Assembly: GCA_012839295.1 (NCBI GenBank)
Contig: DUNO01000047.1
Location: 1 to 45,334, forward strand
Direction of reading: 5' to 3'
DNA from: Clostridiales bacterium
Lineage (GTDB): Bacteria > Bacillota > Clostridia > Lachnospirales > Lachnospiraceae
DNA length: 45,334 bases
Shown here: piece by piece, positions 10,692 to 38,356 of the stretch
Layout of the letters: each line of letters begins with the position of its first letter
Numbering within the stretch: position 1 is the stretch's first letter
Made by a program: the position numbers and the translations under genes
Notes under the pieces: model-generated
Databases searched by the model: none
What the model saw: only the letters and a program-made list of their open reading frames with translations
Told to the model about the DNA's origin: nothing

Positions 10692-12503
10692 TTAATCTTC
10701 GTCCAATTTTAATACGCTCATGAAGGCCTTCTGGGGGATTTCCACATTACCAATCTGCCTCATCCTCTTCTTTCCTTCCTTCTGCTTCTCTAACAGCTTC
10801 TTCTTACGTGTAATGTCACCGCCGTAGCATTTTGCAAGGACATCCTTCCTCATGGCCTTTACGGTTTCCCTTGCTATTACCTTGCTTCCGATTGCCGCCT
10901 GGATTGGGATCTCAAAGAGCTGGCGGGGAATCTCCTCCTTCAGCTTCTCGCACATCTTTCTTCCTCTTTCATAGGCGCTGTCGGCATGTACAATAAAGGT
11001 CAGTGCATCCACTTCTTCCTTATTAATAAGGATATCCAGCTTCACTAATTCGGACTGGACATAGCCCTTCAGCTCATAGTCAAAGGAGGCATAGCCCTTG
11101 GAGCGTGATTTCAACGCATCAAAGAAGTCATAAATAATTTCATTTAATGGCAGGTCATATTTTAACAGAGCTCTCGTTGTCTCCATATATTCCATGCCAA
11201 GGTAGACGCCGCGCCGTTCCTGGCAAAGTCCCATAATGGAGCCTACGAATTCCGTAGTCACCATAATCTCTGCCGAAACCATCGGCTCCTCCATATAGTC
11301 AATTTCCGAGGGATCCGGAAGATTGGTGGGATTCGTGATCTCAATGACTGAGCCGTCATTCTTGTGAACCTTATAGATAACGCTGGGCGCAGTCGTTACA
11401 AGATCCAGGTTATATTCCCGCTCCAGCCTTTCCTGGATGATCTCCAGATGCAGCAGGCCAAGGAAGCCGCAGCGGAAGCCAAAGCCCAGGGCTATGGAGG
11501 TCTCCGGTTCAAACTGCAGGGAGGCATCATTTAATTGGAGCTTTTCCAGCGCATCCCGCAAATCCGGATATTTTGCCCCATCCGCCGGATACATTCCACA
11601 GTAAACCATGGGGTGCACCTTCTTATAGCCGGGCAGGGGCTCTGCACAGGGGCGCCCATTATCCGTTACGGTATCCCCGACCCGGGTATCCTTCACATTC
11701 TTCAGGCTGGCTGTAATATAACCAACCATACCGGCAGACAGCTCCTGTGCCGGTATAAACTGTCCCGGCCCAAAGATACCAAGCTCGACAACCTCCGCGG
11801 TTGCACCGGTTGCCATCATACGGATCTCGGTACCCTTCCTGACGGTACCCTCCATAATCCTAAGAAATACAATAACTCCCTTATAGGGGTCATAGATCGA
11901 GTCAAAAATAAGAGCCTGCAGCGGAGCATTGCAATCTCCCTTTGGAGCCGGTATTTTCTCCACGATCTGCTCCAGCACCTGCTCTACATTGGTTCCAACC
12001 TTTGCCGATATCAGAGGGGCATCATGGGCTTCCAGCCCGATGACATCCTCGATTTCCGCAATGACACGCTCAGGATCCGCACTCGGAAGGTCTATTTTAT
12101 TAATAACCGGCATAATGTCCAGGTTATGGTCCAGAGCCAGGTATACATTCGCCAGGGTCTGGGCTTCAATTCCCTGGGCAGCATCTACAACCAGGATTGC
12201 CCCCTCGCAGGCAGCCAGGCTCCGTGAAACCTCATAGTTGAAATCCACATGCCCTGGGGTATCAATTAAATTAAAGACATATTCCTCCCCGTTCTTAGCC
12301 TTGTATACGGTACGAACGGTCTGTGCCTTGATCGTAATTCCTCTTTCCCTTTCCAAATCCATATTATCCAGTACCTGTGCCTGCATCTCCCGGTTCGTCA
12401 GCAACCCGGTCATCTCGATAATACGGTCAGCCAGCGTTGATTTACCATGATCTATATGAGCAATGATACAAAAATTCCTGATTTTACTTTGGTCTACAGC
12501 CAT
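10692..12503 (-). CDS. lepA: Elongation factor 4 (LepA)
   Basis: Ribosome-associated translational GTPase that can back-translocate stalled or mistranslocated ribosomes. The 603-residue protein has G1 [14 protein letters not shown], the G3 DTPGHVDF and G4 NKIDLP motifs, domain II, the EF-G-like domains III and V, and the LepA-specific C-terminal domain ([20 protein letters not shown]). AGGAGG sits six bases before the ATG, but this site lies in one arm of a perfect 10-bp inverted repeat (12507-12527), so initiation may be controlled by folding of the leader. It lies between spoIIP and hemW. Confidence 0.98.
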
Positions 12504-16100: not shown

Positions 16101-18365
16101 TTAATAAAAGATACCCTTCTTCTGTACATTGATAAAGTTCATAAGGAAATCAACTGCCTGGATTCTTGTAAGGTTTGCCTTCGGATTGAAGTTTCCGTCT
16201 GCTTCAGCATCCATTAGGCCATATCCCTTTGCAAGGGCAACGGCACCATAATATTTGGAAGTAATGCTGTTATCGTCCAGATATCCTGTCTTATAGATGC
16301 CCTGCAGCTTCGACATCTTCTCAAGTCCAAGCTTCACAATGAACAGGTTCGCCAGCTCTTCCTTCGTTATTAATTGCTTGCCTTCTCCGCTGGACTCTAT
16401 TAGTTTTTCATCGCCATAACCCATATCGGAGAATAATTTGTTGATCTCAGCTACGGTAATCGTCTGGTCCGGGTTGAATTTTCCTCCCTCAAAACCAATG
16501 TTCATGTCAGCCAGCAGCAGTATATTGCGGTTCTCGGCCGAATCCGTAATATCACTGTAGGTATAGGCCTGGGCACCGGTGTAGGGCTTGCCGTTATAAT
16601 CCAGCTGCCCGCCGGTGAAAGGCGAAATATAGGCGGGTGACAGATCAGGACGGTATACCAGGCGGACGCCATACCCTATGGAATATGCAGCACTGCCCTG
16701 CTTGCCCGAGCTGTCCTTATTCGTGGAATAAATCTCATATTTTAATCCGTAGTCCTCATTTCCCAGATAATAATCCATTGCCTGGGCAGGGGTAATTACT
16801 CCCTTGGCAGATTCAAACACTACATTATCATCCCAGTTTGCACCGTAGGAATAGATTTTGCCGGTAACGCCGTCAACGGATCCATATAGATAGTTATTCG
16901 GATACTCAACATTTTCATTGGTACGGTTATACTGGTAGCTGTAACCTCCATAGATCGGGGTGTTATCCTTCTGGTAGCCGACTACAAGCTCATCATTCAC
17001 TGTGGAAAGAACACTATTCTTAAAGCGCACGCTGGCCTGCTGTGCCAGGAATTTTTCAAGAATTGCCTGGCTCTTCTTCTTGTCATATTTTACGGTAACA
17101 TTCTTCCAGCTCTGTGTCGCATCATTATAATAGCCCTTCATGCTTGAATAGAAGGAAAGGATCTGTCCGCTGACCGCATCGACGGAGGCATAGGCATAAG
17201 CCCTGTAGCTGCCGTCTCCCTTTGATTTGGTGGTTGGTTCCGGGTCACTCAGGCTAATATTCCATACATAAGAATTTTCGCCCTTCGTTCCCCACTGCTT
17301 ATTTAAGGAGGCAGTGATGGATTTTAAGCTGTCCTCCAGATATAAGGAATCATTCTCCGTTATTATACTGATGGCCTTTGATTTTGATATAATATTCTTC
17401 AGCTCGGATATCTGCTTGATTTCTGCCTCCGTCAAAGCCTGTTCTGTGGAACCGGCACCCATATCGGCAGCACCAGCAAAATTTGCGCTTTCCTTAGTGG
17501 CAACCGCATCATTTTGTGTAATCCATTCTGATTTTGTCAGATAAATCTTACCTGTATTTGCATCGACGGAAATATAGTTCTCGGAGGGCTCATATACCAA
17601 AAAGGCTTTGACCTCGCTTGTGCCGTCCTGCTTAAAGGTGCGGAAATAATTAGAACGGTAAACCAGCTTCATCTCCATATTTTCCTTGATCAGCCTGGCA
17701 GCCTCTTCCTTGGTTATCTTAGCCGTTGCCGCCGGGACGGAAGCGTCATAGAGCCAATTAATGTTGGCTGAAGTCGGTTCCCCTGTCACGCTGCTCACAT
17801 AAACAGTTACACCGTTGTCAGGAAAGTCCACATTATTGCCTACCCTTTGATAATTGTAAATATAATTTCCTCCATAGATCCCGTCATAATTAGAATTCAG
17901 GTATTCTAATTTTCCGTTGGTCTCAGGAGCGATTTTCTTGATAAAAGCGTCTGCCTTATCCTTTAGTTCCGACCTCAAATACTTTGCCACACCTGCGTTT
18001 TCCTTTGAATTATCATACTGGTAAAAAGAGGTGATGTGGTAATCGGCATCACAGTTTACCTGGAGGTAGGAATTATCCTTCGGGTTACTCCAGGACAGGG
18101 ACCAGGAAGCACTTGAATACACGCCGGAATCGTTAAAGTAATAATTAAAATCTGTATAGGCGCTGGGTACGTTTATCCTTGCCTTCACCTCCCGGATCGC
18201 CTTCTCGAGGCCTTCCGTGGTCGGCTCCCCTGCAGTTGCAAGAGATGCACTCGCCTTTGCTGCTATTGCTGCTTCAGGAGCCGCCGCACCGGCAGCATCC
18301 GTATGCATTGGCAGGGCTGTCGCCACTAAGGCTATGCTTAGTAATAATGCCACTTTTCTTTTCAT
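16101..18365 (-). CDS. YcdB/YcdC-type PepSY surface protein with C-terminal SLH domains
   Basis: About 754 residues from MKRKVALLLS (GGAG ten bases upstream). A signal peptide ending near MHTDAAGA is followed by two similar halves (residues about 50-290 and 320-560) with PepSY-like blocks: TKEEAARLIKENMEMKLVYR, ISVDANTGKIY, NYLYGSVDGVTGKIYSYGANW. This is the layout of the YcdB/YcdC domain family, which may bind or inhibit a protease; the role is not established. Residues about 600-754 form S-layer homology repeats (FNPDQTITVAEINKLFSDMG, FNPKANLTRIQAVDFLMNF), which attach it non-covalently to the cell wall. It stands alone, pointing towards rpsT. Confidence 0.85.
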   Translation of the reverse strand: MKRKVALLLSIALVATALPMHTDAAGAAAPEAAIAAKASASLATAGEPTTEGLEKAIREVKARINVPSAYTDFNYYFNDSGVYSSASWSLSWSNPKDNSYLQVNCDADYHITSFYQYDNSKENAGVAKYLRSELKDKADAFIKKIAPETNGKLEYLNSNYDGIYGGNYIYNYQRVGNNVDFPDNGVTVYVSSVTGEPTSANINWLYDASVPAATAKITKEEAARLIKENMEMKLVYRSNYFRTFKQDGTSEVKAFLVYEPSENYISVDANTGKIYLTKSEWITQNDAVATKESANFAGAADMGAGSTEQALTEAEIKQISELKNIISKSKAISIITENDSLYLEDSLKSITASLNKQWGTKGENSYVWNISLSDPEPTTKSKGDGSYRAYAYASVDAVSGQILSFYSSMKGYYNDATQSWKNVTVKYDKKKSQAILEKFLAQQASVRFKNSVLSTVNDELVVGYQKDNTPIYGGYSYQYNRTNENVEYPNNYLYGSVDGVTGKIYSYGANWDDNVVFESAKGVITPAQAMDYYLGNEDYGLKYEIYSTNKDSSGKQGSAAYSIGYGVRLVYRPDLSPAYISPFTGGQLDYNGKPYTGAQAYTYSDITDSAENRNILLLADMNIGFEGGKFNPDQTITVAEINKLFSDMGYGDEKLIESSGEGKQLITKEELANLFIVKLGLEKMSKLQGIYKTGYLDDNSITSKYYGAVALAKGYGLMDAEADGNFNPKANLTRIQAVDFLMNFINVQKKGIFY

Positions 18366-18700
18366 AAAAATCATTCTCCTTTCTATTTCCACCTGTTCTT
18401 TTATCCGTATACGAATCCCAATTCAAAGATCTCCGGAAGCCTCCGGGAAAGCCTCGCATATAACCTTTTCCAAAAGCTTTCCATCCAAGTCCTTTACCAG
18501 GAATTCATATTTCCTCTATTAGACGCTGCAGAAAATACCAAGGTTGCATTTTTATGTTAGTTTGGTCAAATTTTTCATGCCAGCCTTCGACACCGGATGA
18601 CATGCCCTGGTACCATGTCGTCTATATTTATCGTTGACAGCTCCCTCTACCCTTCCAGGTCTGTTTATTCATAATCAGGCACCCTTATAGCATAATAGCT
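18366..18700. other. Intergenic region, 335 bp
   Basis: No gene is seen. It holds one inverted repeat, GACATG (18599-18604) with CATGTC (18614-18619), shortly after the DUF1697 gene end. No promoter for the SLH gene could be assigned with confidence. Confidence 0.5.
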
Positions 18701-24168: not shown

Positions 24169-24780
24169 CTAAAACCCCAGAACCGCCTGCCAGTTAAAGA
24201 ATTTTGTAATAATGGTACAATGATGCAGCGCTTTCTCTTTGGGAAAATCATGTATGACGGTTTCAAACAAAGTAGACCAATAGGCCGTCAAAAGAATGTG
24301 GAGCTCATCCTCATCCACTTGATTTTCTGTAAGTCCATGGGAAAAGGCTTTCTCAATAAAATCCATGGTATGCTTTGAGTTCTCCGCCACAAAATCATTT
24401 AAAAAAGTCGAGTAAGCGGATCCCCCGGAGCAGCACAAAAGAAGCTTAAAACCGTCGAATCTTGCATAAAGAAACTCAATCCACCTTTTATGGGTTTCTT
24501 CGGACATATCCCACACCAATTGCATTTCTTCCCGTTCCAAATGCTCATAGTTATTCTTTTCAACAGCTTCAACCAGCGCATTAATATCCCTAATCGTCGG
24601 TTCCAATACGGCTGCAAATAATTCCTCTTTTCCAGAAAACCTCTTATAAAGGGCGCCGGTTGTTACTCCGGCTTTTTGGCAGATCTCACGCAGGGAAGCA
24701 TTGGCAAACCCCTTCTGCAAAAATTCTTCCTTTGCGCTTTCCAGTATTTTTGGATCAATATTGCTGTCGGGCAGTGACAT
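24169..24780 (-). CDS. TetR-family transcriptional regulator
   Basis: A 203-residue regulator with the TetR helix-turn-helix at residues about 28-60 (ASLREICQKAGVTTGALYKR, then FSGKEELFAAVLEP) and an all-helical ligand domain. GGGAG lies about eight bases upstream of the start. The gene immediately precedes the ABC pair on the same strand, and its promoter contains two abutting dyads, so it very probably represses its own operon and thereby the transporter, with release by the transported compound. Confidence 0.92.
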   Translation of the reverse strand: MSLPDSNIDPKILESAKEEFLQKGFANASLREICQKAGVTTGALYKRFSGKEELFAAVLEPTIRDINALVEAVEKNNYEHLEREEMQLVWDMSEETHKRWIEFLYARFDGFKLLLCCSGGSAYSTFLNDFVAENSKHTMDFIEKAFSHGLTENQVDEDELHILLTAYWSTLFETVIHDFPKEKALHHCTIITKFFNWQAVLGF

Positions 24781-24827: not shown

Positions 24828-24856
24828 AGTATATTGCATTTATTTATGCCTGTCAA
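24828..24856 (-). promoter_or_regulatory. Promoter of tetR-ABC operon
   Basis: On the minus strand TTGACA (24851-24856) and TATACT (24828-24833) are separated by 17 bases, abutting the operator dyads. A very good SigA-type match. Confidence 0.9.
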
Positions 24857-25137: not shown

Positions 25138-26112
25138 TTATCTGGCTGTCTTTGCCTGGTTGGCCAATTCTATTTGATGACTTTTTTTCTGATAATTGTC
25201 AAAAGCAATCGCTAATGCCAGTATTGTACCTTTCATAATATACTGGGAATAGATGCTAAGTCCCATAAGCTGCATTCCATTTGAAATAATGCCTAATAGC
25301 ATAACACTGATAAACATATTGGTTATATTTCCTTCCCCACCATTGAAGGAAATTCCTCCAAGTACACATGCACTGATACAAATAAACACCGCATCTGATG
25401 CGATACCCGGGCTGGCGGTTCCGGTACGTGCTGTTAAAACCATTGCAGCAATCGCTATAAAAACACCGGAAAGAACAAAAGAGGCAACACGTATGAATTT
25501 TGTATTAAGACCAGCCATCCGGGCTGCTTCTTCATTTCCTCCCAGAGAATAGATATGCCGTCCGAAATACATTTTCTTCAATATCACATATGCAATTGCA
25601 TACATGACAAACATGATAATGACACTCATAGGAAGCCATCCAAATAAATACTTCTGCCCAATTGCTTTAAAAGAATCCGGAAAATTAAAGAAGGTCGAGC
25701 CTCCGCATAGTACATAGGCAATTCCCTGAAAAATTGTCATTGTGGCCAAGGTCGCAACCATTGGGTGTACTTTAAGTTTTATGGTGATCAGTCCGTTGAA
25801 TAAACCAAGACTTCCCCCCAATAAAATACCAATAAAAATAATCAGCGGAACAGGAATGGCGTTATTTTGCAGTAACATTCCGCAGATTACACTGACAAGT
25901 CCCATCTGCCAGGATACTGAAAGATCAGCTCCACCGGCAATCATTACAATTGCAATACCCATCGTAGCAACTACCAGATATGAATTCTGTACAAAAATAT
26001 TTGTAAGATTATGTACACTGAAAAATGCATCCGTAGTAATAGCAAAAAATATAATTGCCAATACTAAAATAATAGGAAGATAAAATTTATTGATTATTTT
26101 CTTTACAACCAT
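25138..26112 (-). CDS. Sugar-type ABC importer permease (RbsC/MglC family)
   Basis: A 324-residue integral membrane protein of the branched/ribose permease family (BPD_transp_2), with about nine or ten hydrophobic segments and the family blocks GIAIVMIAGGADLSVSWQMG and YSLGGNEEAARMAGLNTKF (the EAA-like cytoplasmic loop that meets the ATPase). It starts one base after the ATPase gene stop, so they are co-translated. It is the last gene of the catabolic operon, followed by the terminator-like repeat at 24961-25000. The cargo is a sugar or sugar-containing compound by family; here I infer a glycoside. Confidence 0.92.
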   Translation of the reverse strand: MVVKKIINKFYLPIILVLAIIFFAITTDAFFSVHNLTNIFVQNSYLVVATMGIAIVMIAGGADLSVSWQMGLVSVICGMLLQNNAIPVPLIIFIGILLGGSLGLFNGLITIKLKVHPMVATLATMTIFQGIAYVLCGGSTFFNFPDSFKAIGQKYLFGWLPMSVIIMFVMYAIAYVILKKMYFGRHIYSLGGNEEAARMAGLNTKFIRVASFVLSGVFIAIAAMVLTARTGTASPGIASDAVFICISACVLGGISFNGGEGNITNMFISVMLLGIISNGMQLMGLSIYSQYIMKGTILALAIAFDNYQKKSHQIELANQAKTAR

Positions 26113-26113
26113 C

Positions 26114-27628
26114 TTAGACCGCCTCTTTTCTGAGTTTTGATTTTTTCTCCATTGCGTCCGAAATGATATGCATAATCTTTACCTGACTAGCTTCTTTACC
26201 ATCGATTTCGCCTGCAATACATCCGTCTGCTAAAACATAAATTCGATCTGACATACCAAGGAGTTCTTCCATATCAGAACTAATTAAGAGAATGGATTTT
26301 CCCTCATTCACCAAATCAGCCATTAGCCGATAGATTTCCTGCTTTGCCCCTACATCAATTCCACGCGTAGGCTCATCAAAAATAATCAATTTACTTTCCG
26401 TTGTTAACGCTTTGGCAATAACGACTTTTTGTTGATTACCACCGCTTAAGCATTCAACCCTTACGTCCGGTGCCGGAGCTGCAATCAATAGCTTACTAAT
26501 ATATTCTTCAACAACATTACTCATTTTCTTAAATCCCATGAATCCTTTTGGGCTTAATTTCTTAAGAATAGAAATCGTTATATTCCAATCTATCCCAAAA
26601 GTGAGTAATACACCTTGATGTTTTCGATCTTCCGGTATAAATCCTATATGATGTGCAATTCCGCTGCGTGGTGATGTAATATTGACTTCTTTTCCCTCTA
26701 TGAAAACCTGTCCACTCTTTTTTAAGTCAACTCCATATATCATACGTGCTAATTCAGTACGGCCGGCACCTAACAACCCTCCCAATCCGACAATCTCACC
26801 TTTCTTCACATATAAATTAATATCATAGTTGCTATTTCCAGTTAAATTTTTAATTTCAAGCATATTTTCATCGCTTTGATAGGTTCTTTCCGGAAATGTT
26901 TCCTTCAGGTCACGATCTACCATTAATTTAATCAAACTCTCACGTTCCACTTCATTTGCGTTCAGTGTCTTAACTACTTCACCATCGCGAAGTACAGTGA
27001 TTCTGTCTGACACTCTAAAGACCTCATCCATTCTGTGCGAAATATATATTATTGATACACCTTGCTTTTTTAATTTTTCTATGATAAGAAACAAGTTGTC
27101 AATTTCTTCTGAGGTAAGCGGTGCCGTCGGTTCATCGAGTACAAGAAGCTTTACACCTTTTGAAATTGCTTTTGCAATTTCAACCAATTGCTGCTTTGCA
27201 GTAGTCAAATCCCCTACCTTTTTTCTTGGGTCAATCTTGATACCCATTTCCCTGAAAACATTATCTGCTATTTTTATCTGTGATTTATAATCAACAAATA
27301 CGCCGTCAACCTCGCCAAGACAAATGTTTTCCGCTATAGAAAGCGCTTCAACAAGGCATAGTTCCTGATATACTATTTCTATTCCAAGCTCTTTCGATCC
27401 TTTTGGTGTCATATGGCTAAATTCTTTACCTTCCCAGCAAATCGTTCCTTCATCGGGTATTACGGCACCACTAAGTGCCTTTATTAATGTAGATTTACCG
27501 GCGCCATTTTCACCAATCAGCGTATGAACTTCCCCTTTGAATATATCAAGGGAAATATTATTATTTGCAACTACTCCGGGATAACGTTTTGTCAATCCTT
27601 GAAGTGATAATAATATATTATCAGTCAT
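26114..27628 (-). CDS. Sugar-type ABC importer ATP-binding protein (RbsA/MglA family)
   Basis: A 504-residue protein with two fused ATPase domains. Domain 1 has Walker A IGENGAGKSTLIKALSGAV, Walker B LLVLDEPTAPLTSEE and HRMDEVF. Domain 2 begins with the variant GGLLGAGRTELARMIYG and has LSGGNQQKVVIAKALTT and LIIFDEPTRGIDVGAKQEIY. This pattern is standard for RbsA/MglA, in which the second site is altered. The start at 27628 (MTDNILLS) has AGGAGG six bases upstream; the longer in-frame reading does not. A strong hairpin separates it from the binding-protein gene upstream. Confidence 0.95.
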   Translation of the reverse strand: MTDNILLSLQGLTKRYPGVVANNNISLDIFKGEVHTLIGENGAGKSTLIKALSGAVIPDEGTICWEGKEFSHMTPKGSKELGIEIVYQELCLVEALSIAENICLGEVDGVFVDYKSQIKIADNVFREMGIKIDPRKKVGDLTTAKQQLVEIAKAISKGVKLLVLDEPTAPLTSEEIDNLFLIIEKLKKQGVSIIYISHRMDEVFRVSDRITVLRDGEVVKTLNANEVERESLIKLMVDRDLKETFPERTYQSDENMLEIKNLTGNSNYDINLYVKKGEIVGLGGLLGAGRTELARMIYGVDLKKSGQVFIEGKEVNITSPRSGIAHHIGFIPEDRKHQGVLLTFGIDWNITISILKKLSPKGFMGFKKMSNVVEEYISKLLIAAPAPDVRVECLSGGNQQKVVIAKALTTESKLIIFDEPTRGIDVGAKQEIYRLMADLVNEGKSILLISSDMEELLGMSDRIYVLADGCIAGEIDGKEASQVKIMHIISDAMEKKSKLRKEAV

Positions 27629-27649
27629 TTTGTACCTCCTGTAATATAA

Positions 27650-27687
27650 GGCGCAGTTTCTATACATTAATGTCCGAAAACTGCGCC
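27650..27687 (-). terminator. Attenuating hairpin between binding-protein and ATPase genes
   Basis: GGCGCAGTTT (27650-27659) pairs with AAACTGCGCC (27678-27687). On the minus strand the stem lies just after the lipoprotein stop and lacks a strong U-run, so partial termination or 3'-end protection is likely. This would give more binding protein than ATPase and permease, a common arrangement. Confidence 0.7.
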
Positions 27688-27709
27688 TTTTTTTATACTG
27701 GCCGTTTCA

Positions 27710-28780
27710 TCAGAAGCCAAAATCCGCCATATTATCAGCCGTTGCAATATCTACATTAACTGGATAAAATTTTTCATAATTTCCGTTTATGATATCCATG
27801 CACTGTTTTGCAATATCCTCGCAGGCTTTGGTTATATTACCGCCATTGACGCAGGCAGTACGGATAACATCCGTGCCCTGTGCCGCATTCTTGATAGACT
27901 CTGCTATTTCTGCATTTAGGTCTACTGTAAATATTCCAAAATCTGTATAATCATTAATTACAGAACCTTCAGCCATTACTGTCGAACGAACGCCCAAAGC
28001 CATTTCACCTGAGCAAACAACAAACAGATTAATGTCTCCCTTATATTTCGTAATAAGATTTTCTGTTGCAGATTGGGCATAAGACTGAGATGTCTCCCAT
28101 TGTACTTCTTCCATAATATTTAACTGTGGATATTCTTTTAACTTTTCACAAGTAGCATTAAAACGCTCTGTTTCACTTCCTGCCCCAATACCGCCAATAA
28201 CAATAGTATTAATGGAACCCTCCGCTGCATCAGGGAAATGTTCTTCTATCCACTCCATAGTTATTTGCACTAATGTATGTGCAACCTTTGTTTCATCTCC
28301 TCCCCGGAAGCTCGTACGATATTGCTCTCCCGGATCTTTAATAAAAGCAAATACCGGAACGCCTGCCGCCATTGCACGTGAGCACGCATCCGAAATAGCG
28401 TTTGGATCTACTGCAATGGTAAAAATCAAATCGTATCCCTGGGTAACACAGTTATCAATCTGTTCAATTTGTCTGACCGCATCCATGTCCGCATCAATAA
28501 TATCCATTTCAGCACCTTGGTCTGCCAGCTTTGCCCTGATATTCTCATAATAAAAATTCCAGAAATCACCTTCTGTTGTCATAGTACATAATGCAACTTT
28601 TTTTGCATCCTTTAATGCTTCTGTTACCTCTGCGGATTGCGTAATGTTTCCTTGTGTCCCATTTTCCTGTGTCCCACCTGCTGTGTCTGTACTGCCTGCT
28701 TTTTGGCTGCAGGCTGTAAACATACACATAACCATTACCAGTGAAAGAGCCATGCTAAGAATTCTTCCCGTTTTTTTCAT
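27710..28780 (-). CDS. Sugar-binding lipoprotein of ABC importer (Peripla_BP_4)
   Basis: A 356-residue extracytoplasmic solute-binding protein. Signal peptide with lipobox MFTAC (Cys24 lipidated), then a Gly/Thr-rich spacer, then two Rossmann-like lobes: ALCTMTTEGDFWNFYYENIR, the family block IDNCVTQGYDLIFTIAVDPN, and RTACVNGGNITKACED. This is the Peripla_BP_4 class that binds pentoses, hexoses, and autoinducer-2-like ligands. The partners are the ATPase and permease genes downstream. It lies after the TIM-barrel gene with a gap containing a perfect palindrome. The ligand is unknown; I infer a glycoside or its sugar. Confidence 0.93.
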   Translation of the reverse strand: MKKTGRILSMALSLVMVMCMFTACSQKAGSTDTAGGTQENGTQGNITQSAEVTEALKDAKKVALCTMTTEGDFWNFYYENIRAKLADQGAEMDIIDADMDAVRQIEQIDNCVTQGYDLIFTIAVDPNAISDACSRAMAAGVPVFAFIKDPGEQYRTSFRGGDETKVAHTLVQITMEWIEEHFPDAAEGSINTIVIGGIGAGSETERFNATCEKLKEYPQLNIMEEVQWETSQSYAQSATENLITKYKGDINLFVVCSGEMALGVRSTVMAEGSVINDYTDFGIFTVDLNAEIAESIKNAAQGTDVIRTACVNGGNITKACEDIAKQCMDIINGNYEKFYPVNVDIATADNMADFGF

Positions 28781-28841
28781 ATTACCTCTCCTTATCCTTT
28801 TTACTTTATTTCTCTAATCCGTCATCTTCGGATTAAAGAGT

Positions 28842-28862
28842 ATAAACAGTTAAACTGTTTAT
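28842..28862. promoter_or_regulatory. Perfect palindrome upstream of binding-protein gene
   Basis: Arms ATAAACAGTT (28842-28851) and AACTGTTTAT (28853-28862) are perfect complements around a single A. A second inverted repeat, TAATCCG (28815-28821) with CGGATTA (28829-28835), follows closely. They may be an operator for an internal promoter or part of a leader structure. Confidence 0.65.
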
Positions 28863-28882
28863 TACCTGGATACTGCCTGCGG

Positions 28883-29869
28883 TTACAGGGTTTTTTCTTT
28901 TATGATTCTCCGTTCCATCGCAATATGGCGTTTTACCATTTCAATACCGCTATAATCACCTGCACATTCAAATTCCGTCATAATAAATCCGTCATATCCG
29001 CTTTCTGCCACAACAGGAAGAATTTCATCATATGGAATACTTGCCTCCTTCAAATCTTCTCCGATATAATGGCACTTTCCATGCATTTCAAAGCATCTTG
29101 GCATGATTTCCTTCAGTCCCTCCAGTTCCTTCCTGCAATCCTTCTTAAACTGGACAAATCCATACATCTGGGTAAGTACCGACATCGCGGCCGGTGAAGG
29201 ATCTATTTTTAAGACTCTCTCAATTGCCTCCTTCTGTGGCACTTCATCATATTTCATTTCAGCCATCATTTGCAAAGTTGACTCTTTTACGCCTGCTTCT
29301 AATGCTTGATCCCAGTACGGTTTGTTTGGTTTTGTTGCAAAAATCCCAAAGTCAGGTACAAATCCTATATAAGGTGAATTGCACTTATCATATGCTTCCC
29401 GGTAAGCTTCAATCATAGGTGTAAATGGTGTTTCCGGATTATGTATTTCAATTCCCACCCTGATTCCATACTCCTCGGCATACGGAGCCAATCTGACCAT
29501 TGCATTTGGGGAAAGCAGAAACTGTTGTCTTACAGTTGTACACCCCAGTTTATGTGCACTTTTTAAATCGTTAATGGCCATTCCCAGCATCTCGTCTTCT
29601 GTTAAATCTCTATCCCTTCGCATACCCCTATCCATATTAGCGGCATAGCATACCGGCCAGATTCCATATTTCGCCGAGCATTCCCTGATAAATCCGGCAA
29701 AGCTGTCTGAAACATAAGGATATGAAGGTATCATTTGTGTTGCAACAATTTCATAACCCTCCGCACCAACCTGCGCTGCTGTTCTTATGCAATCTTCCAG
29801 GCTAAGCTGACCACGGACATATTCATTGGTAAAGCTGAATAAGGTACATCCTACTTTAAATTTTGCCAT
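28883..29869 (-). CDS. TIM-barrel protein, probable C-glycoside deglycosidase alpha subunit (DgpC-like)
   Basis: A 328-residue protein of the sugar phosphate isomerase/epimerase TIM-barrel superfamily. Candidate metal-binding residues in family positions are Glu141 and His143 (VGIEIHNPE), Asp173 (GFVPDFGIF), His263 (FEMHGKCH) and Glu299 (IMTEFE). In characterised C-glycoside deglycosidases the alpha subunit binds Mn2+ and uses a histidine as base; His143 is a candidate here. The next gene upstream is the small DUF6379 subunit, and before it a Gfo/Idh dehydrogenase, the same set as DgpA/B/C. An ordinary sugar isomerase is the alternative. That it acts on 3-keto glycosides is inferred from the neighbours. 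Confidence 0.72.
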   Translation of the reverse strand: MAKFKVGCTLFSFTNEYVRGQLSLEDCIRTAAQVGAEGYEIVATQMIPSYPYVSDSFAGFIRECSAKYGIWPVCYAANMDRGMRRDRDLTEDEMLGMAINDLKSAHKLGCTTVRQQFLLSPNAMVRLAPYAEEYGIRVGIEIHNPETPFTPMIEAYREAYDKCNSPYIGFVPDFGIFATKPNKPYWDQALEAGVKESTLQMMAEMKYDEVPQKEAIERVLKIDPSPAAMSVLTQMYGFVQFKKDCRKELEGLKEIMPRCFEMHGKCHYIGEDLKEASIPYDEILPVVAESGYDGFIMTEFECAGDYSGIEMVKRHIAMERRIIKEKTL

Positions 29870-29900
29870 TTATGACCTCCTGTTTATCTGCCGTCTTCCA

Positions 29901-30332
29901 TTAATCTAATACCGGCAATGTCTTGATACCGCTGCCATCATAGCACATATATTGGTGATCCGGTCCGATCGGCATATAGGGTGAACGAAAAATTACCTTA
30001 AAATCAATCTTATGCTCTCCGGCCGAAAGTCCCCCTTTTTTGTATACGCGGACTGTTGCCGGCTCAAGCACCGTCCAGAACTCGGTATAACATTCGCCTA
30101 ACTGGCAGACGTCAAATTCCTTTTCATTAATACAGAACTTGATATCCTGCTCCTTTACTTTTAAACCGTCGACTGTAACCTCAAACTCCTCAATATCTGA
30201 CAGATAATGACCTCGGTAATAGTTCAGGCGCACCTCAAACTGGTAGCCCGATTTTTTACCGTTGATATATGTATTTTTCAAACTATGATCACTGATTGCA
30301 TCTACCAGATTCATACGTAAAGCAAAAGCCAT
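29901..30332 (-). CDS. DUF6379-type protein, probable C-glycoside deglycosidase beta subunit (DgpB-like)
   Basis: A 143-residue all-beta protein from the start at 30332 (MAFALRMNLVD), with AAAGGAA seven bases upstream. An in-frame ATG at 30359 would overlap the stop of the oxidoreductase gene. Conserved-looking blocks are FEVRLNYYRGHYLSDIEEFE, EDIKFCINEKEFDV-like and FRSPYMPIGPDHQYMCYDGS. This matches my recollection of DUF6379, whose characterised members are beta subunits of C-glycoside deglycosidases and pair with a TIM-barrel alpha subunit. The TIM-barrel gene starts 31 bases downstream. Its function without the partner is not known. Confidence 0.72.
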   Translation of the reverse strand: MAFALRMNLVDAISDHSLKNTYINGKKSGYQFEVRLNYYRGHYLSDIEEFEVTVDGLKVKEQDIKFCINEKEFDVCQLGECYTEFWTVLEPATVRVYKKGGLSAGEHKIDFKVIFRSPYMPIGPDHQYMCYDGSGIKTLPVLD

Positions 30333-30358
30333 AATTAAGTTCCTTTCCCGCCAAATCA

Positions 30359-31462
30359 TTAAAAGCGAATTTCTTTATTTTCAGCTGCTGACAGATAAAT
30401 CCCTTCTAAAATCTTTGTAACCATGAGAGCCTCTTCCGGTTTTACCAACGGTTGGGTTTTATTCTGGACCGCTTGCAGCCACTGTCTGATATCAATGGTT
30501 CCTTCTTCTCCGCCACCGCCGCCGAAATATGCAACTCCTCCAACCGGAGAAATAATCTCCTCCATTAACTGCCCATTTCTTCCCCGGTTATAGATCAGTT
30601 CATTTTTGGAATAGCTCATGCCTGAATGTATTTCAGCCCCTGCTTCCGTACCGCAAAGCGTCGTGGATGCTTCACGGGATTCCCGTATATTTAATGCCCA
30701 GCTTGCTTCCAGGCTAACGACTGCGCCATTTTTCATCTTGATTAGTCCCAGCGCTGAATCTTCCACTTCATAGGTCTTAGGATCCCAAGCTCCGAATAAG
30801 TTGCCTTCTGTAGCCTGCTGCAACCCCCCCAATTTATAAAAGACAGAACCTGTTACACTATCAACTTCATAATTATTCATGCACCATAATGTGATATCCA
30901 GCGCATGGGTTCCGATATCAATCAACGGTCCGCCTCCCTGTTTTTCTTTATCCATGAATACTCCCCAGGTAGGGACACCTCTTCTGCGCAGTGCATGTGC
31001 TTTTGCAAGATAAATATCTCCTAAATCACCTTTCATACATGCGGCATGAAGATTCTGGACTTCCGGACGGAAGCGGTTCTGATATCCTACCGTAAACTGC
31101 ATACCGGATTCCTTCCACGCCTCTACCATTTTCTCTGCTTCCTCTGCACTGTGGGACATGGGTTTTTCACAATATACATGTTTCTTTGCCGCAAAAGCTT
31201 TCATAGAAATTTCACTGTGTGACACATTCGGCGTACAGATATGAACAACATCAATATCCGTATTTGCCAATAATTCAAGATAATCCGTATAAATCTTAGC
31301 ACCAGGTACACCAAATTCTCCTGCTGCTTTCACTGCCTTCTCTTCAATAATGTCACAGAATGCAATTAGTTCATTTAGGTCGGAATTCGCCTTTAACGCC
31401 GGAAGATGCTTCTGATTCGCAATTCCACCGCAACCGATCATACCTATTTTTAATTTACCCAT
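30359..31462 (-). CDS. Gfo/Idh/MocA-family oxidoreductase, probable glycoside 3-dehydrogenase (DgpA-like)
   Basis: A 367-residue NAD-dependent dehydrogenase. Rossmann motif KIGMIGCGGIANQKHLPALK, the family motif HVYCEKPMSHSAEEA (catalytic-site EKP), and the C-terminal domain with KEKQGGGPLIDIGTHALD (His-containing sugar-binding motif). AAGGAG lies 11 bases upstream of the ATG. It is the first gene of the catabolic operon. In the DgpA/B/C system such an enzyme oxidises the C3'' hydroxyl of the glucosyl group, which activates the C-glycosidic bond. The same reaction on O-glycosides or a simple inositol/sugar dehydrogenase are alternatives. Confidence 0.85.
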   Translation of the reverse strand: MGKLKIGMIGCGGIANQKHLPALKANSDLNELIAFCDIIEEKAVKAAGEFGVPGAKIYTDYLELLANTDIDVVHICTPNVSHSEISMKAFAAKKHVYCEKPMSHSAEEAEKMVEAWKESGMQFTVGYQNRFRPEVQNLHAACMKGDLGDIYLAKAHALRRRGVPTWGVFMDKEKQGGGPLIDIGTHALDITLWCMNNYEVDSVTGSVFYKLGGLQQATEGNLFGAWDPKTYEVEDSALGLIKMKNGAVVSLEASWALNIRESREASTTLCGTEAGAEIHSGMSYSKNELIYNRGRNGQLMEEIISPVGGVAYFGGGGGEEGTIDIRQWLQAVQNKTQPLVKPEEALMVTKILEGIYLSAAENKEIRF

Positions 31463-31598
31463 TTTTCGTTGTTATCTCCTTCCTTACCAGTTCTTATTTC
31501 ATTCTTATTCTACATGTATTTCATTTCCCTGGCTTCTTCACTTCTGCAACCATTCTTAATACAAAAATGACATTTATTATTTATATTTTTAAGAACAT

Positions 31599-31640
31599 AA
31601 AAAGCAGGTCAAAATCCATACATAGGATTTTGACCTGCTT
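31599..31640 (-). terminator. Terminator of the AraC-GH39 regulator gene
   Basis: A perfect 16-bp stem (31602-31617 and 31625-31640) with a seven-base loop, followed on the minus strand by TTTTT. It ends the regulator transcript 20 bases after its stop. The remaining 31463-31598 should hold the promoter of the oxidoreductase gene; it is AT-rich with no clear -35/-10 pair. Confidence 0.9.
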
Positions 31641-31659
31641 CATTTTTAACTTTCGATTT

Positions 31660-34065
31660 CTACATTTGTTTACTTAAGCGAATATAGGCTATTTCATTGG
31701 CATGCATTTGAATAACTATTTCTCCTGTTCCATTTTCTATCTTATACTTCTGTATTGTGTTTTTTGGTTCGCATACCCGGCGGAAATACTGAATATCATT
31801 TCTTGATAATGCCCTGTCGTAATCCATTTCCCTCCAAATATTAAGAACACTGCCGCATTGTTCATTGATACGGTATGTTTGCATCCGATAAATTCCATTC
31901 TCAAGGTTTTTCAGTTTGATACATATTTCCAGCATGTCTCTGTCTTCATAATACTTCCAATCGTTTTTCTTCTCAATCTCATCTTCCCTTGTTAAAAAAT
32001 AGTTATAATTTAACCTTTTCTGGTTATGGCAAACAATACCATAGGTCTGATGCAGATCTGCTGTAATAAGATAATTTTCCCCTCTTCCAATGAAATATGG
32101 ATAAAGTTGATTTAAGAATTCAAAGGCAAAGGCTGCCGGTTTCATAATGCCGTCTTTCGTCAGCAATCCCATACCTCCATTCAACAGGGTATTGGAATCA
32201 TAATATTCCGAAACTCTGTCACTGCCAAGAAAATATCCAATCTCATCTACTTTTCCATAAACATCCAGTATATTTTTTACAATGTAGGCACCCTTAAAAC
32301 AGGTATCATTGATTGCATTCCTGTCAGAAATTGATAAATTCCATTCTGTCAGGTACAGTTTAATATCTGTCATCCCTACCTCTGCCATTTCTCTTTTTAA
32401 TTCTTCGATACTATGCAAAAGAAATTCCGAATCAGCTACTCTTAAGGAATACTGATCCAGCTTCTCTTTTCCCCTGATATAGGCATAGTTTAAGCCTGAA
32501 ATAAAATCAGGTTTTTGATGAAACATCCATTCCTTAAGAAATTCAGAGTTTGACCCGGTAACAGCTAAAGCCTCCAGGCCACATCCCCCAATTTCTAACT
32601 TTGCTGTGTATTTTCGGATGATTTTATAAGTATGATTGAATAATTCAAAATAGCTGCCAATTGCAGAATCACCTTTATAGTAACGCTCATCATACCAAAG
32701 TTCCATTCTCCAGGTGTCTAATTCACCGGCTCCATACCGGTCAATCAGATGGCTCATTAATGCATGTATCACACCATCCCATTGCTTAAGACTATGAAAC
32801 CGCACACCCGTATCCTCATATACAAGCGCAGACTGTACGGTTTTATGAATCCTTCTTGGTTTTTGTCCAAGTTCTATATGCGGCTTTATTCCTTGCAATA
32901 ATAGAAAATCCAAAATAGAATCCAGTCTTGAAAAATTATACTCCTGCCCTTCGCTGGTAATGTCTATCAAAAGTTTTGGGGAGAAAATATTCCAGAAACG
33001 TACATATTGGAATCCCAGGGCTTCTTTTAAAAGTATCATATGTTCTCTTACTTCGGATTGGAGCATATCCTCAGCAGAACCGCCATTTATCATCTTATTC
33101 CAGAATGGTTTAATAAGAGTGCTGTTTTCTGCTGAATATTCCATCTGAATCTTTTCGGATTTTTCTTTCTCCCGTTCTATCCCATCCTCCCGTAAGAATT
33201 GTTCCAGTCTTTCTTCAATCACCTCTATATTCTCTTTGTTTTCTTCTTTATTTATCTGTTTTTTTGATTTTTTCCTCACTGCTGACGGGGTCTCACCATA
33301 GGTCTTTTTGAATGCTTTGTTAAATACGGCTAAGCTCGTAAAGCCGTTATTAAAGGCAATTTTCGTTACCGGATTATTCGTATACAGTAATTCATCTATC
33401 GCATAATTCAACCGGATATTCGTGAGGTATTCCGTGAACTTCATTCCATAGCTTCTTTTGAAAAACCGGGAAAGATAAGCAGTTGAGAGGTACAATTTTT
33501 CAGATAATTCTTTCAGGCTAATTGATTGGTTATAATTTGCCCTGATATAGTTGTTTATCTGCATCAGCCGTTCTTCAAACTTATCTTTTTCATCTGCGTT
33601 ATCCTTACTGGATTCCTGTACAAGAAAATGCACCGTAAGAATATCTATCATCTGATAGCATAGTGATATATATCCAAAGCTAGCCATGCCTTTCTGTATA
33701 CCTAAATAATGATTCAAAAGCTGTTTAATGACTCCCCGCAATTTATCATAGGATTCGCCATCACTAATTGTTGAGTTACACCAGAAAATAATATTCACAC
33801 TTTGAAAAACAGTATTGATTAATCCATAATCTATCTCGAACAAAGCATAGAGAATATCAACAGACGCTTCAAAACTATATTTCTTATTTGCATTTATAAT
33901 TAGGATATCATCCGCTTTTAGATGAGACTGCTGCTCCCCTACTTTAATATCCATCCTTCCCTCTATGATATAAAATAGCTGGATATTCTGCTGGAAATGC
34001 TCTGTTAATTTTTGGTTATTTAATACTTTGACAAGTACGCTATCCTTTCGTTTGTAATTGTCCAT
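31660..34065 (-). CDS. AraC-family regulator fused to a GH39-like glycoside hydrolase domain
   Basis: An 801-residue fusion. Residues about 20-90 form a cupin-type AraC sensor (FYIIEGRMDIKVGEQQSHLK). Residues 165-265 form the two-HTH AraC DNA-binding domain (SISLKELSEKLYLSTAYLSR, then IAFNNGFTSLAVFNKAFKK). After a charged linker, residues about 320-800 resemble GH39 beta-xylosidases: YVRFWNIFSPKLL, the acid/base region WRMELWYDE (Glu455) and the nucleophile region LYLTEWN (Glu574). Both catalytic glutamates are kept, although the usual Asn before Glu455 is Met. It is divergent in function but on the same strand as, and just before, the oxidoreductase operon, so it is the likely activator. No signal peptide, so it acts in the cytosol. 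GGAGG precedes the start. Confidence 0.88.
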   Translation of the reverse strand: MDNYKRKDSVLVKVLNNQKLTEHFQQNIQLFYIIEGRMDIKVGEQQSHLKADDILIINANKKYSFEASVDILYALFEIDYGLINTVFQSVNIIFWCNSTISDGESYDKLRGVIKQLLNHYLGIQKGMASFGYISLCYQMIDILTVHFLVQESSKDNADEKDKFEERLMQINNYIRANYNQSISLKELSEKLYLSTAYLSRFFKRSYGMKFTEYLTNIRLNYAIDELLYTNNPVTKIAFNNGFTSLAVFNKAFKKTYGETPSAVRKKSKKQINKEENKENIEVIEERLEQFLREDGIEREKEKSEKIQMEYSAENSTLIKPFWNKMINGGSAEDMLQSEVREHMILLKEALGFQYVRFWNIFSPKLLIDITSEGQEYNFSRLDSILDFLLLQGIKPHIELGQKPRRIHKTVQSALVYEDTGVRFHSLKQWDGVIHALMSHLIDRYGAGELDTWRMELWYDERYYKGDSAIGSYFELFNHTYKIIRKYTAKLEIGGCGLEALAVTGSNSEFLKEWMFHQKPDFISGLNYAYIRGKEKLDQYSLRVADSEFLLHSIEELKREMAEVGMTDIKLYLTEWNLSISDRNAINDTCFKGAYIVKNILDVYGKVDEIGYFLGSDRVSEYYDSNTLLNGGMGLLTKDGIMKPAAFAFEFLNQLYPYFIGRGENYLITADLHQTYGIVCHNQKRLNYNYFLTREDEIEKKNDWKYYEDRDMLEICIKLKNLENGIYRMQTYRINEQCGSVLNIWREMDYDRALSRNDIQYFRRVCEPKNTIQKYKIENGTGEIVIQMHANEIAYIRLSKQM

Positions 34066-35832: not shown

Positions 35833-36291
35833 TTAACCTTCTGCCTGAATTTTCACTTTTTCGTACTGGTAGAGCCCTGCGTCCACCGTCATGCGGCACA
35901 TCGTGAGCTCCAAATCAAAACGGCGCTTACCACAGCTGCCCGGATTGAGGAATAGCACTCCATCAATAACTTCTGCAAAATATTTGTGGGAGTGTCCATA
36001 GACCACCACATCCACATTTGTCAAGTGTTTTGGGACATCCTTCTTGTTATGGACGATGAAGAATCTCACGCCTTCTATAGTGACGTCAATGCTTTTCGGC
36101 AGGGCTTCTGCCCAATCCTTGTCGTTGTTGCCGCGCACCACATAGGTTTCTCCCAGTTGCCTCATGGTCTCGACAATGTATGGGGTGTTGATATCACCGG
36201 CGTGGATGGAGCAATCGGCTGCGGCCAGTTCAGCTATGACCTGCTCCCGCAGCAGGCCATGGGTATCGGATAGGATTGCAATGTGTTTCAT
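35833..36291 (-). CDS. YfcE/MJ0936-type metallophosphoesterase
   Basis: A 152-residue calcineurin-like phosphodiesterase. Motifs: AILSDTHGLL (metal-binding Asp and His), IHAGDIN (GD), VVRGNNDKDWA (GNND), FIVHNKK and VVVYGHSHKYF (GHSH). It probably hydrolyses a phosphodiester in the cytosol; the natural substrate is unknown. The start at 36291 (MKHIAILSD) has GAGG five to six bases upstream. A longer in-frame reading would run into the end of the upstream nucleotidyltransferase gene and is not supported. Confidence 0.92.
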   Translation of the reverse strand: MKHIAILSDTHGLLREQVIAELAAADCSIHAGDINTPYIVETMRQLGETYVVRGNNDKDWAEALPKSIDVTIEGVRFFIVHNKKDVPKHLTNVDVVVYGHSHKYFAEVIDGVLFLNPGSCGKRRFDLELTMCRMTVDAGLYQYEKVKIQAEG

Positions 36292-36358
36292 GGGTTCCTC
36301 TTTCTCAATGCTGTTAATAATCTTAGGACTGACCTGGTTCTGCAAACCAGAGATCCTA

Positions 36359-37219
36359 TTATAAACAGTTTCCCTCATAAACCTTATTCATAACATTGAT
36401 AAGATATATTCTCATATTCTCTTCATCTTGTTTGTTGTAGGTATAACCAAAATGGTCTGCAACCTGTACGGCAAGTAAACTGAACATATCGCATGCAATA
36501 AATATTGCCTTCCACATGCTATCGTCATCACTGCCTGAATAAGTCATTAAATATTGTTCATATATCTCAGAGGGTAAATAATGTTTAAAATATTTTCCCA
36601 TTTTACCTGCTGAAACACGAAAATCTGTGGTCATGCCAATATACCACACTATCATTTCATGTAATTCCTCGCGGACAACATTGTGATATATTAACATGGC
36701 ATAAGGTATTTCATTACGGGCAATGCCCTTTGCTACATTTTGTAAGCACCACCAAAAATCATTGCAGCAGGACAGATAAAATAACTCAGATGGGGCTTTC
36801 ATGATATAGTCACTATCGCTTGCCTGGGGAAATGGCGGTAAAATACCGTCTTTATCCAGCAATGCTATACTCAGGCTATCATTACCGATAAGCTCAAGCT
36901 TTTGAATTGGAATAAGAGTCAGGTCAAGACGGTTACCATCGGTAAATAACATCATCCAATTAAAATGTCCTGCACCACTTGGATTACGCATTGCTTCAGG
37001 CATTTGCAGCATAAGCCTGTCGCCGAAAACATCTATCCAGCTATTATCAGCGGTAAATGCCTCAAGATTATCAACTACATAAACAATATCATAATCCTGA
37101 TAGACATCTTTCGGTGCGTTAGGATTAGTGCGTGAGCCATTCATATATACCGCCCGTACACGTGAATCTTTCTCTGCTGTATCCAATATCAATTCAAACA
37201 TTTCTTTTTCTGTCCGCAT
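36359..37219 (-). CDS. ANT(6)-like aminoglycoside nucleotidyltransferase
   Basis: A 286-residue member of the streptomycin (aminoglycoside 6-) adenylyltransferase family. The nucleotidyltransferase motif is VRAVYMNGSRTNP, then DVYQDYDIVYVVDN (the Asp pair that binds Mg), followed by DRLMLQMPEAM and MLLFTDGNRLDLTLIPIQ. Length matches AadE/ANT(6). Whether it inactivates streptomycin cannot be told from sequence, as many chromosomal relatives of unknown activity exist. It lies directly downstream of a truncated epimerase fragment, suggesting local rearrangement. No strong ribosome binding site is seen. Confidence 0.88.
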   Translation of the reverse strand: MRTEKEMFELILDTAEKDSRVRAVYMNGSRTNPNAPKDVYQDYDIVYVVDNLEAFTADNSWIDVFGDRLMLQMPEAMRNPSGAGHFNWMMLFTDGNRLDLTLIPIQKLELIGNDSLSIALLDKDGILPPFPQASDSDYIMKAPSELFYLSCCNDFWWCLQNVAKGIARNEIPYAMLIYHNVVREELHEMIVWYIGMTTDFRVSAGKMGKYFKHYLPSEIYEQYLMTYSGSDDDSMWKAIFIACDMFSLLAVQVADHFGYTYNKQDEENMRIYLINVMNKVYEGNCL

Positions 37220-37435: not shown

Positions 37436-37568
37436 CTACCACGCGCTTGCGCATAAGAAAAGACATGATCTTCCACTTAGCGGAAAAACATGCCTTTGTT
37501 GGCTGTTTATCTTAAATACCGCCGCAACAACAGGTTTTATTTACGTTAGGGCTTTCTGCTGTTGAATT
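37436..37568. repeat. Dispersed repeat copy 2 (terminator plus CCCGGI tail)
   Basis: Positions 37436-37554 closely match 24938-25058. The unit contains an imperfect hairpin (AAAGACATG with CATGCCTTT) and, on the minus strand at 37568-37512, a startless 18-codon tail NSTAESPNVNKTCCCGGI. The repeat overlaps the last codons of the PBP fragment at 37541. Confidence 0.75.
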
Positions 37569-38356
37569 TCAACGCCCTTCAGATCAGCCTTGCTCTCCAT
37601 GACAGCTGCTACAGTGGCATCGCTTACTTTAGACGCAACCGTAATCTGAAGATACTTTGGAAAATTGCAGAATAACGCGTATCGAACACTCATGATTTTC
37701 AGAGTATCTTCTACGGAATATTTATCAGATATATTAAACATATGGGTATAGCCATTGCCGGTACCGATTCGCAGGAACTCATAAACATCTTGCGCGGTCG
37801 CATTTAGCTGCTCTTCGGTCAGGTTACCATCCTTAAGAACATAGGCAAAGGCATTCTTCTTAAATCGAGTCAGGGCTGAGCCTTCCACGGTAAACTCTAA
37901 TTCACCCGATTCATTCTGCCTGATGTAAAATTCGTTATAAAGGGAGTCTCCATTATCTTCTATTATTTTGATCAATTTATGGATGATGTCATTATATTCA
38001 TCATCAGGAACCGCGGTATCTTCCATGACAACTGAATAAGAAAACTCATTCGTAGCTAAAAGAACTCCGTTACGGTCATAGATATTACCGCGGGTACTTT
38101 GGTCATGTACATTCATTGACCCTTGTTCTGAATCACTTTGCCCATAGGCACTCCCATTTATTTCTACATTATTATTGGTGTTGCTAGATACTATTGCACT
38201 TATAAATACCAATCCAAAAAAAACAGAAAGAATTAAGCGGGCGGTAGGATTAAATCTCTTATATTGGTACATAACAAAAATCCCAATAGGAGCAAAAAAG
38301 ATTAACATAACCCACATAAACCATGTTTTTTCATAAAATTTTTGAATGCTACCCAT
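37541..38356 (-). pseudogene. Truncated PBP2-like (FtsI/MrdA family) protein, N-terminal part only
   Basis: 271 residues: two hydrophobic segments near the N-terminus (MWVMLIFFAPIGIFVMYQ and LSVFFGLVFISAIVSS), then a region starting STRGNIYDRNGVLLATNEFS, which is the RGxIxDRNGxxLA start of the dimerisation domain of class B penicillin-binding proteins. It ends at VMESKADLKGVEIQQQ, the place where full PBPs go on to the transpeptidase domain. No SxxK motif exists, so it cannot be a transpeptidase. The end coincides with the dispersed repeat at 37436-37554. AGGAGG supports the start, so a shortened membrane protein may still be made. Confidence 0.75.

Follow-up and report, generated by a model that had tools for sequence, protein, structure and literature searches.

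In a stretch of 45,334 nucleotides from a Clostridiales bacterium of the family Lachnospiraceae (contig DUNO01000047.1 of assembly GCA_012839295.1; hereafter the window), we have identified a minus-strand locus that resembles the C-glycoside deglycosidase (dgp) operons of gut bacteria. In the order of transcription, the operon carries dgpA, coding for a DgpA-type Gfo/Idh/MocA glucoside 3-dehydrogenase of 367 amino acids (aa; 30359–31462; Pfam GFO_IDH_MocA), dgpB, coding for a DgpB-type beta subunit (CGDB/DUF6379; 143 aa; 29901–30332), dgpC, coding for a DgpC-type alpha subunit with a TIM barrel (28883–29869; Pfam AP_endonuc_2), and three importer genes, namely a substrate-binding lipoprotein of the CUT2/RbsB type (27710–28780), a double ABC ATPase of the RbsA/XylG/AraG type (26114–27628) and a permease of the RbsC/AraH type (25138–26112). 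The beta gene adjoins the alpha TIM-barrel gene at a distance of 31 nucleotides (nt). All six open reading frames (ORFs), described as one operon at 25138–31462 in an earlier sequence-only reading, were found at those coordinates on the minus strand. That account left out the gene upstream of dgpA, which codes on the same strand for an 801-aa regulator joining an AraC-type module to a GH39-like domain (31660–34065; PF12833, PF02311 and PF01229), and a 29-bp palindrome between the two genes, GGTCAAAATCC-7-GGATTTTGACC (31607–31635), which lies in a terminator-like inverted repeat at 31601–31641. The length of 143 aa given for DgpB is correct with a start at Met10 of the 152-aa ORF, which yields the same N-terminus as in its two closest solved homologues, and the ATPase probably starts at Met14 of its ORF (27628), preceded by AGGAGG.

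The three enzymes resemble DgpABC/PuCGD of the gut strain PUE (7xr9, 7bvr), in which dgpA, dgpB and dgpC likewise form one operon (PMC11170127; this and the other papers named by PMC number are cited from extracts). Over the aligned parts, DgpA is identical to its PUE counterpart 7xr9 at 274 of 362 positions (75.7%; phmmer against PDB 6e-193), DgpB at 70 of 140 (50.0%; 7bvr_B, 1.8e-43) and DgpC at 166 of 323 (51.4%; 7bvr_A, 6.1e-117). The closest solved relative of both subunits is the DgpB/DgpC pair of 9m3a, with 57.3% identity for DgpB (9m3a_B, 3.9e-54) and 55.9% for DgpC (9m3a_A, 1.4e-122). Together with the Pfam match of the 143-residue protein to PF19906 (E 5.1e-38), this bears out its proposed membership of DUF6379/CGDB, and the TIM-barrel protein clusters with DgpC as had been suspected. 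We rejected an inositol or xylose isomerase as an identity for the latter: nine PDB sequences matched it at E ≤ 0.1, and the sole entry not of the CGD type did so at 1.3e-3. The metal ligands proposed for it (Glu141, His143, Asp173, His263 and Glu299) are all exactly placed, except that His143 is not a ligand in PuCGD: there the metal is bound by a Glu/Asp/His/Lys/Glu set, and the role of His143 is that of the base, with H143A retaining 10.4% activity (PMC8563793). With Lys265 and Glu301 also present, the window DgpC keeps all seven residues probed in PuCGD, that is, the Mn site E141/D173/H263/K265/E299 and the catalytic pair H143/E301.

The earlier caution over C- versus O-glycosides is partly answered by Tyr39 of the beta subunit, which is kept in the window as in PUE. 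Its change to Phe in a characterised enzyme abolished more than 99% of the C-glucoside activity while lowering O-glucoside activity just 2.4-fold (PMC10628242). Among 90 aligned rows of the DgpB family, 84 have this tyrosine, and the six without it include two visibly misaligned fused proteins and one truncated row. Substrate specificity was ascribed to DgpBC rather than to DgpA in Dorea MRG-IFC3 (PMC11239390). That the operon is of the DgpABC/PuCGD kind is well supported and, at the level of sequence, firm; the deglycosidase chemistry would follow by analogy with the characterised relatives.

Such genes are numerous in this organism and confined to a minority of its relatives. Its genome (6.36 Mb, 82 contigs) has 14 DgpB-family genes, the maximum reached in our family sample (shared with genome G086); the DgpB family occurs in 28 of the 298 genomes of that sample (27 above the cut-off) and in 3 of 34 genomes of the genus, the organism's own included. 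Thirteen of the DgpC partners in the own genome have the full catalytic set, and a 263-aa copy (L019:11050–11841) lacks it; L019:7472–8407, also caught by the DgpC filter, is a different TIM-barrel protein. Several copies of dgpBC and dgpA are likewise found in Catenibacillus scindens and C. decagia, both Lachnospiraceae; unlike in the window, dgpA of C. scindens is not adjacent to dgpBC, and the six dgpBC and 11 dgpA of C. decagia were counted at an identity threshold of 33%, which precludes a comparison with the counts here (PMC11170127). The 263-aa copy and its neighbour (L019:11050–11841 and 11846–12262, own genome C48) are a degenerate DgpC that has lost the catalytic Glu pair and a DgpB in which Tyr39 is Trp; they adjoin an AraC-GH39 gene with the palindrome and are possibly non-catalytic or of new function. 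Single-chain DgpB-DgpC fusions make up 6 of the 81 DgpB-family genes whose context was fetched from the own genome, the genus and the family sample (L021:5660–7078, L031, L032, L049 with two, and L068). At L009:1854–4782 and L016:4717–6760, a second pair of dgpA-like and TIM-barrel genes (348–349 and 304 aa), which the window operon does not have, stands by dgpABC in relatives and is a candidate for hydration and reduction steps.

The N-terminal half of the regulator carries a cupin/AraC-binding domain and HTH_18 (79 bits), with HTH_AraC in two stretches, and we predict an AraC-family protein from this two-HTH DNA-binding domain. Its C-terminal half is of the same family as the GH39 beta-xylosidases 2bs9 and 4m29 (E about 1e-40; 4.3e-41 for 4m29), but unlike them it is fused to the AraC-type module and has lost the acid/base motif (NEP is replaced by YDE) and the active-site His, with the nucleophile Glu kept. 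This loss recurs at dgp loci. Our alignment took in 66 distinct fusions from the fetched loci; of the 39 with a DgpB gene no more than 10 kb away, none keeps the Asn-Glu dyad, the acid/base column reads Glu in 4, and the His is kept in 2 and the nucleophile in 35, whereas the dyad is kept in 6 of the 27 others (5 of these without context). All 17 stand-alone GH39 proteins keep the dyad, the His and the nucleophile, although these controls, from 15 fetched stretches, are a favourable choice, 14 being among the best-scoring GH39 rows. A structure prediction of the regulator reached a mean predicted local distance difference test (pLDDT) of 54.3, built from five sequences, which is too low to support a search by fold.

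The fusions are also strongly linked to DgpB. Among the 62 fusion-length GH39 ORFs listed for genomes with DgpB, 34 lie at most 10 kb from a DgpB gene, where 1.26 would be expected from interval coverage, and 0 of the 10 listed stand-alone ORFs do so. Genomes with fusion-length ORFs number 29, and 18 of them carry DgpB, compared with 9 of the 269 others (Fisher 3.6e-15). These counts sort ORFs by length (76 fusion-length rows of 708–984 aa and 37 stand-alone rows), the AraC part being confirmed in the fetched loci only; we dropped the second half of any gene already listed, rows of stand-alone length that scored under about 80 bits, ORFs above 1000 aa, one ORF of G264 (771 aa, 33 bits) and two of G272 (677 and 588 aa). 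They are lower bounds, with up to five candidates scored per family genome and the own genome scanned in full; the latter holds 14 fusion-length and 3 stand-alone GH39 ORFs, and 8 of the 14 fusions have a DgpB gene at a distance of 10 kb or less. The window regulator has full-length matches (E ≤ 1e-60) in at least 24 of the 298 genomes, 17 of which carry DgpB, with up to three candidates scored per genome. Counted from the enzyme side, 40 of the 81 DgpB genes have a fusion within 10 kb. We regard the regulator as a putative dead-glycosidase sensor, for which linkage and loss of enzyme residues are well supported and sensing is unproven. The architecture as such is not new, AraC-like domains having been mentioned on some GH39 proteins (PMC8543862); within the open-licence literature, we did not find in print its link to C-glycoside loci or the loss of its catalytic residues. 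In the extracts of PMC11170127, 21 GH39 hits are given for C. scindens and 28 for C. decagia, numbers rarely reached elsewhere, C. scindens is negative for beta-glucosidase and xylosidase, and the text on "regulator" deals with other genes; many of these hits may be AraC-GH39 regulators.

The palindrome, a perfect 11-bp inverted repeat around a 7-base centre with five further outer pairs and a T-tract, stands 24 nt after the regulator stop and 144 nt before dgpA. We found it by reading the sequences listed in a motif search upstream of dgpA, a Gibbs search that itself barely beat shuffled sequence (14.3 versus 12.9–13.4 bits at width 12, 17.7 versus 15.7–16.6 at width 18). The exact pattern GGWCARAAN{12,13}TTYTGWCC, partly drawn from the window site, has 2 sites in the own genome, each adjoining both a dgp operon and an AraC-GH39 gene, and the control gave 0. 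Across the 298 genomes it has 47 sites in 37 genomes, against 33 in 31 for the reversed control pattern. Ten DgpB genomes have an exact site, and of their 18 sites 11 lie at most 3 kb from a fusion or DgpB gene; in the seven genomes having fusion, DgpB and site, a restriction made post hoc, 11 of 14 are near with 0.15 expected, or 10 of 13 without the window site. Since an initial relaxed scan, run over both coding and intergenic sequence of all fetched loci, gave 68 matches versus 32–37 in shuffled sequence, only intergenic and strongly palindromic sites were kept: 28 in the 72,166 bp next to genes of the dgp, AraC-GH39 or transporter type, compared with 5 in the remaining 90,805 bp. In 21 distinct strong sites, complementarity extends to the two innermost outer pairs, at 21 sites for one and at 20 for the other (columns 7/39), whose Watson-Crick pairs are of four types. 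The outer pairs, the T-tract, the location and the match in a new genome are independent of selection; the CAAAA/TTTTG core of the 21-row alignment is partly ascertained.

A covariance model of the element (R1), scoring 14 candidates per genome, matched in 111 of 392 order-level genomes. The best site listed (genome G520, 56.4 bits) lies outside the training set. It stands behind an AraC-GH39 gene, and the 19.5 kb retrieved there contain dgpA-type genes and no DgpB. In G533 (40.4 bits), also a new genome, AraC-GH39 is accompanied by dgpA, dgpB and dgpC. These two and the window are the 3 of 30 returned loci that flank a GH39 gene. The five Rfam matches obtained at E ≤ 1 in 31400–31760 stay well short of the gathering score. 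As RNA, the window copy folds with z -8.6 and that of L093 with z -6.1. Complementarity of the outer pairs in the absence of fixed identity speaks for an RNA hairpin, and the constant core, albeit partly ascertained, would fit contact with a protein; we keep operator, attenuator and terminator as candidates. At L192:8750–9835 and L193:8810–9763, an AraC-GH39 gene and palindrome precede an FMN_red-family gene and MFS_2, beside dgp-type genes, and the FMN_red-family product possibly reduces the freed aglycone.

The importer has the CUT2 architecture of RbsABC, XylFGH and AraFGH, with one lipoprotein (Peripla_BP_4; lipobox FTAC by eye), a double ATPase (ABC_tran in two stretches) and one permease (BPD_transp_2), so that the claim of an RbsABC-type importer in line with the dgp genes stands, although such linkage is not unusual. 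Unlike those systems, it falls under every specificity cut-off: no CUT2 specificity model for ATPase or permease was reached, the best being xylose, arabinose, multiple-monosaccharide, galactose and ribose, and the ATPase scores 496–509 bits with the XylG/AraG/RbsA models PRK13549, PRK11288 and PRK10762, below their cut-offs. The lipoprotein is remote from solved proteins (best PDB chain 2e-11). Its relatives at E ≤ 1e-25 occur in at least 8 of the 298 family genomes, the own included (a lower bound, up to six candidates being scored per genome), and 7 of the 8 carry DgpB. By hand comparison of distances, 4 of the 8 non-self matches listed have a DgpB gene no more than 6 kb away (G276:C86, G126:C41, G000:C14 and G060:C67); those of G100 and G156 lie at about 11 and 19 kb and that of G086 at about 73 kb, and G207 has no DgpB. 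The complete triad is found within 8 kb of 13 of the 81 DgpB genes, a raw count without background rate, and MFS_2 near 22. Among nine near loci, MFS_2 follows dgpC in five, MatE in two and the Rbs triad in none; at L014 the triad sits upstream. The transporter thus appears exchangeable around the same dgpABC core. A GC-rich hairpin between the lipoprotein and ATPase genes (GGCGCAGTTT...AAACTGCGCC, 27650–27687, by eye) is a possible 3' stabiliser or attenuator.

Taken together, we propose that the locus serves the catabolism of aryl C-glucosides, probably plant flavonoid-like compounds, switched by the AraC-GH39 fusion and supplied by the importer, a reading to which we give a probability of roughly 0.7. 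The importer would bring in the intact glucoside, since the three enzymes have no signal peptide (by eye) and DgpA works with NAD. DgpA would then oxidise the glucosyl C3-OH, and the DgpB-DgpC complex would hold the 3-oxo-glucoside at the Mn site, where His143 would take the C2 proton; elimination would split the C-C bond between sugar and aglycone, yielding the aglycone and 1,5-anhydro-D-erythro-hex-1-en-3-ulose. The adjacent fusion may switch the locus, its degenerate glycosidase domain binding a glycoside without hydrolysis, and the terminator-like palindrome may be its operator or a leader attenuator. What we observe are the genes, their conserved residues, the missing GH39 catalytic residues, the genomic linkage and the palindrome itself; substrate, ligand, direction of regulation, imported molecule and palindrome function we infer. 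The broader proposal, that gut Lachnospiraceae control C-glycoside breakdown via dead-GH39 regulators acting through a conserved palindrome or hairpin at operon heads, is tentative, its chances falling a little short of even.

Several observations weigh against this picture, and are best taken with the alternatives to it. With the same oxidation and elimination, the main substrates of the enzymes could be O-glucosides or other 3-oxo-glucosides, C-cleavage being incidental. Residue 303 of the alpha subunit, on the aglycone side, is Ala in the window and not Tyr as in the puerarin-contacting PUE enzyme, where it stands near the daidzein 7-hydroxyl, so that puerarin is not assumed as the substrate; D3dgpA oxidises many O-glucosides (PMC11239390), and PuCGE also cleaves 3-keto-O-glucosides such as 3-keto-phlorizin (PMC10628242), for which reason exclusive C-specificity cannot be claimed. 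Yet the window keeps the beta-subunit tyrosine that is needed for C- but hardly for O-cleavage, and its nearest characterised relatives are C-glycoside enzymes, which leaves a chiefly O-glucosidic role unlikely. The operon contains no second TIM-barrel (hydratase) gene. Between dgpC and the lipoprotein gene there is a gap of 102 nt, across which co-transcription is unproven, and the importer might be a mere neighbour that serves a free monosaccharide, as its architecture and best-scoring models would suggest; with all of those scores under cut-off and the closest lipoprotein relatives listed clustering at DgpB loci, we hold this possible but doubtful.

As to the regulator, the sequence fetched around 41 of the 81 DgpB genes, part of it ended by contigs, shows no fusion up to a distance of 10 kb. 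Co-evolution of regulator and DgpC was considered as proof of their pairing and dismissed, their distances being uncorrelated overall (Spearman -0.04, 36 pairs, in one of which, L019, the TIM-barrel gene taken is no true DgpC). The regulators of L009, L010, L014 and L016 (48–58% identical to that of the window) adjoin a DgpC of 59–61% identity, with L100 (53% and 27%) as an exception. The ligand may accordingly not track the enzyme substrate, or the modules may have been reshuffled. That the GH39 domain is an active glycosidase, making the fusion a bifunctional enzyme-regulator, would agree with the nucleophile kept in most fusions near DgpB, with the few that have an acid/base-column Glu, and with the pNP-xyloside (p-nitrophenyl xyloside) activity surmised for an "AraC" ORF in a metagenome paper (PMC4730625), but the altered motif and lost His in the window and the contrast in the dyad between fusions and stand-alone proteins make it very improbable. 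A stronger contender, though short of an even chance, is that the palindrome simply serves the regulator gene as an intrinsic terminator and has no specific regulatory role. It follows the stop codon closely with a strong stem and a T-tract, model matches of 19–31 bits occur after other AraC-GH39 stop codons too, and R1 also picks up ordinary terminators elsewhere, up to about 45 bits; 27 of its 30 returned loci show neither GH39 nor dgp genes within some 1.5 kb. Against this, the core recurs across genera and paralogues (in part through the search pattern), the exact pattern is found at just 2 sites of the own genome, and the copies at L011 and L012 (mutual close relatives) and at L108 lie between divergent genes, where they cannot end an upstream gene. 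Two further points count against our main reading of the palindrome: 7 of the 18 exact sites in DgpB genomes lie more than 3 kb from any fusion or DgpB gene, and the L011 copy folds only weakly as RNA (z -2.2, 8 of 200 shuffles equally good).

Downstream of the operon, a TetR-type gene (24169–24780) with a promoter-like site at 24856–24828 that matches at 11 of 12 positions probably starts a separate unit. Elsewhere in the window, a streptomycin adenylyltransferase-family gene (36359–37219; PF04439, 4.2e-111) overlaps a metallophosphoesterase gene (35833–36378), a 271-aa protein (37541–38356) has the dimerisation domain of penicillin-binding proteins (PF03717) alone, no transpeptidase domain being found in it, and a 763-aa protein (16101–18392) combines a YcdB/YcdC repeat with an S-layer homology domain.

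C-linked plant glucosides strongly resist ordinary enzymatic hydrolysis, and absorption by the host is affected by which gut bacteria free their aglycones. In the open-licence literature, we found no account of the sensing and switching of C-glycoside operons or of their substrate supply. The recurrent regulator, the candidate operator and the locus-linked subfamily of binding proteins offer handles for predicting substrates, for finding inducible clusters and for C-glycoside biosensors. If our reading is true, a dead-GH39 sensor would detect compounds that hydrolases do not cut, and regulators of this kind would also explain many of the "GH39 genes" of Catenibacillus that come without matching activity.

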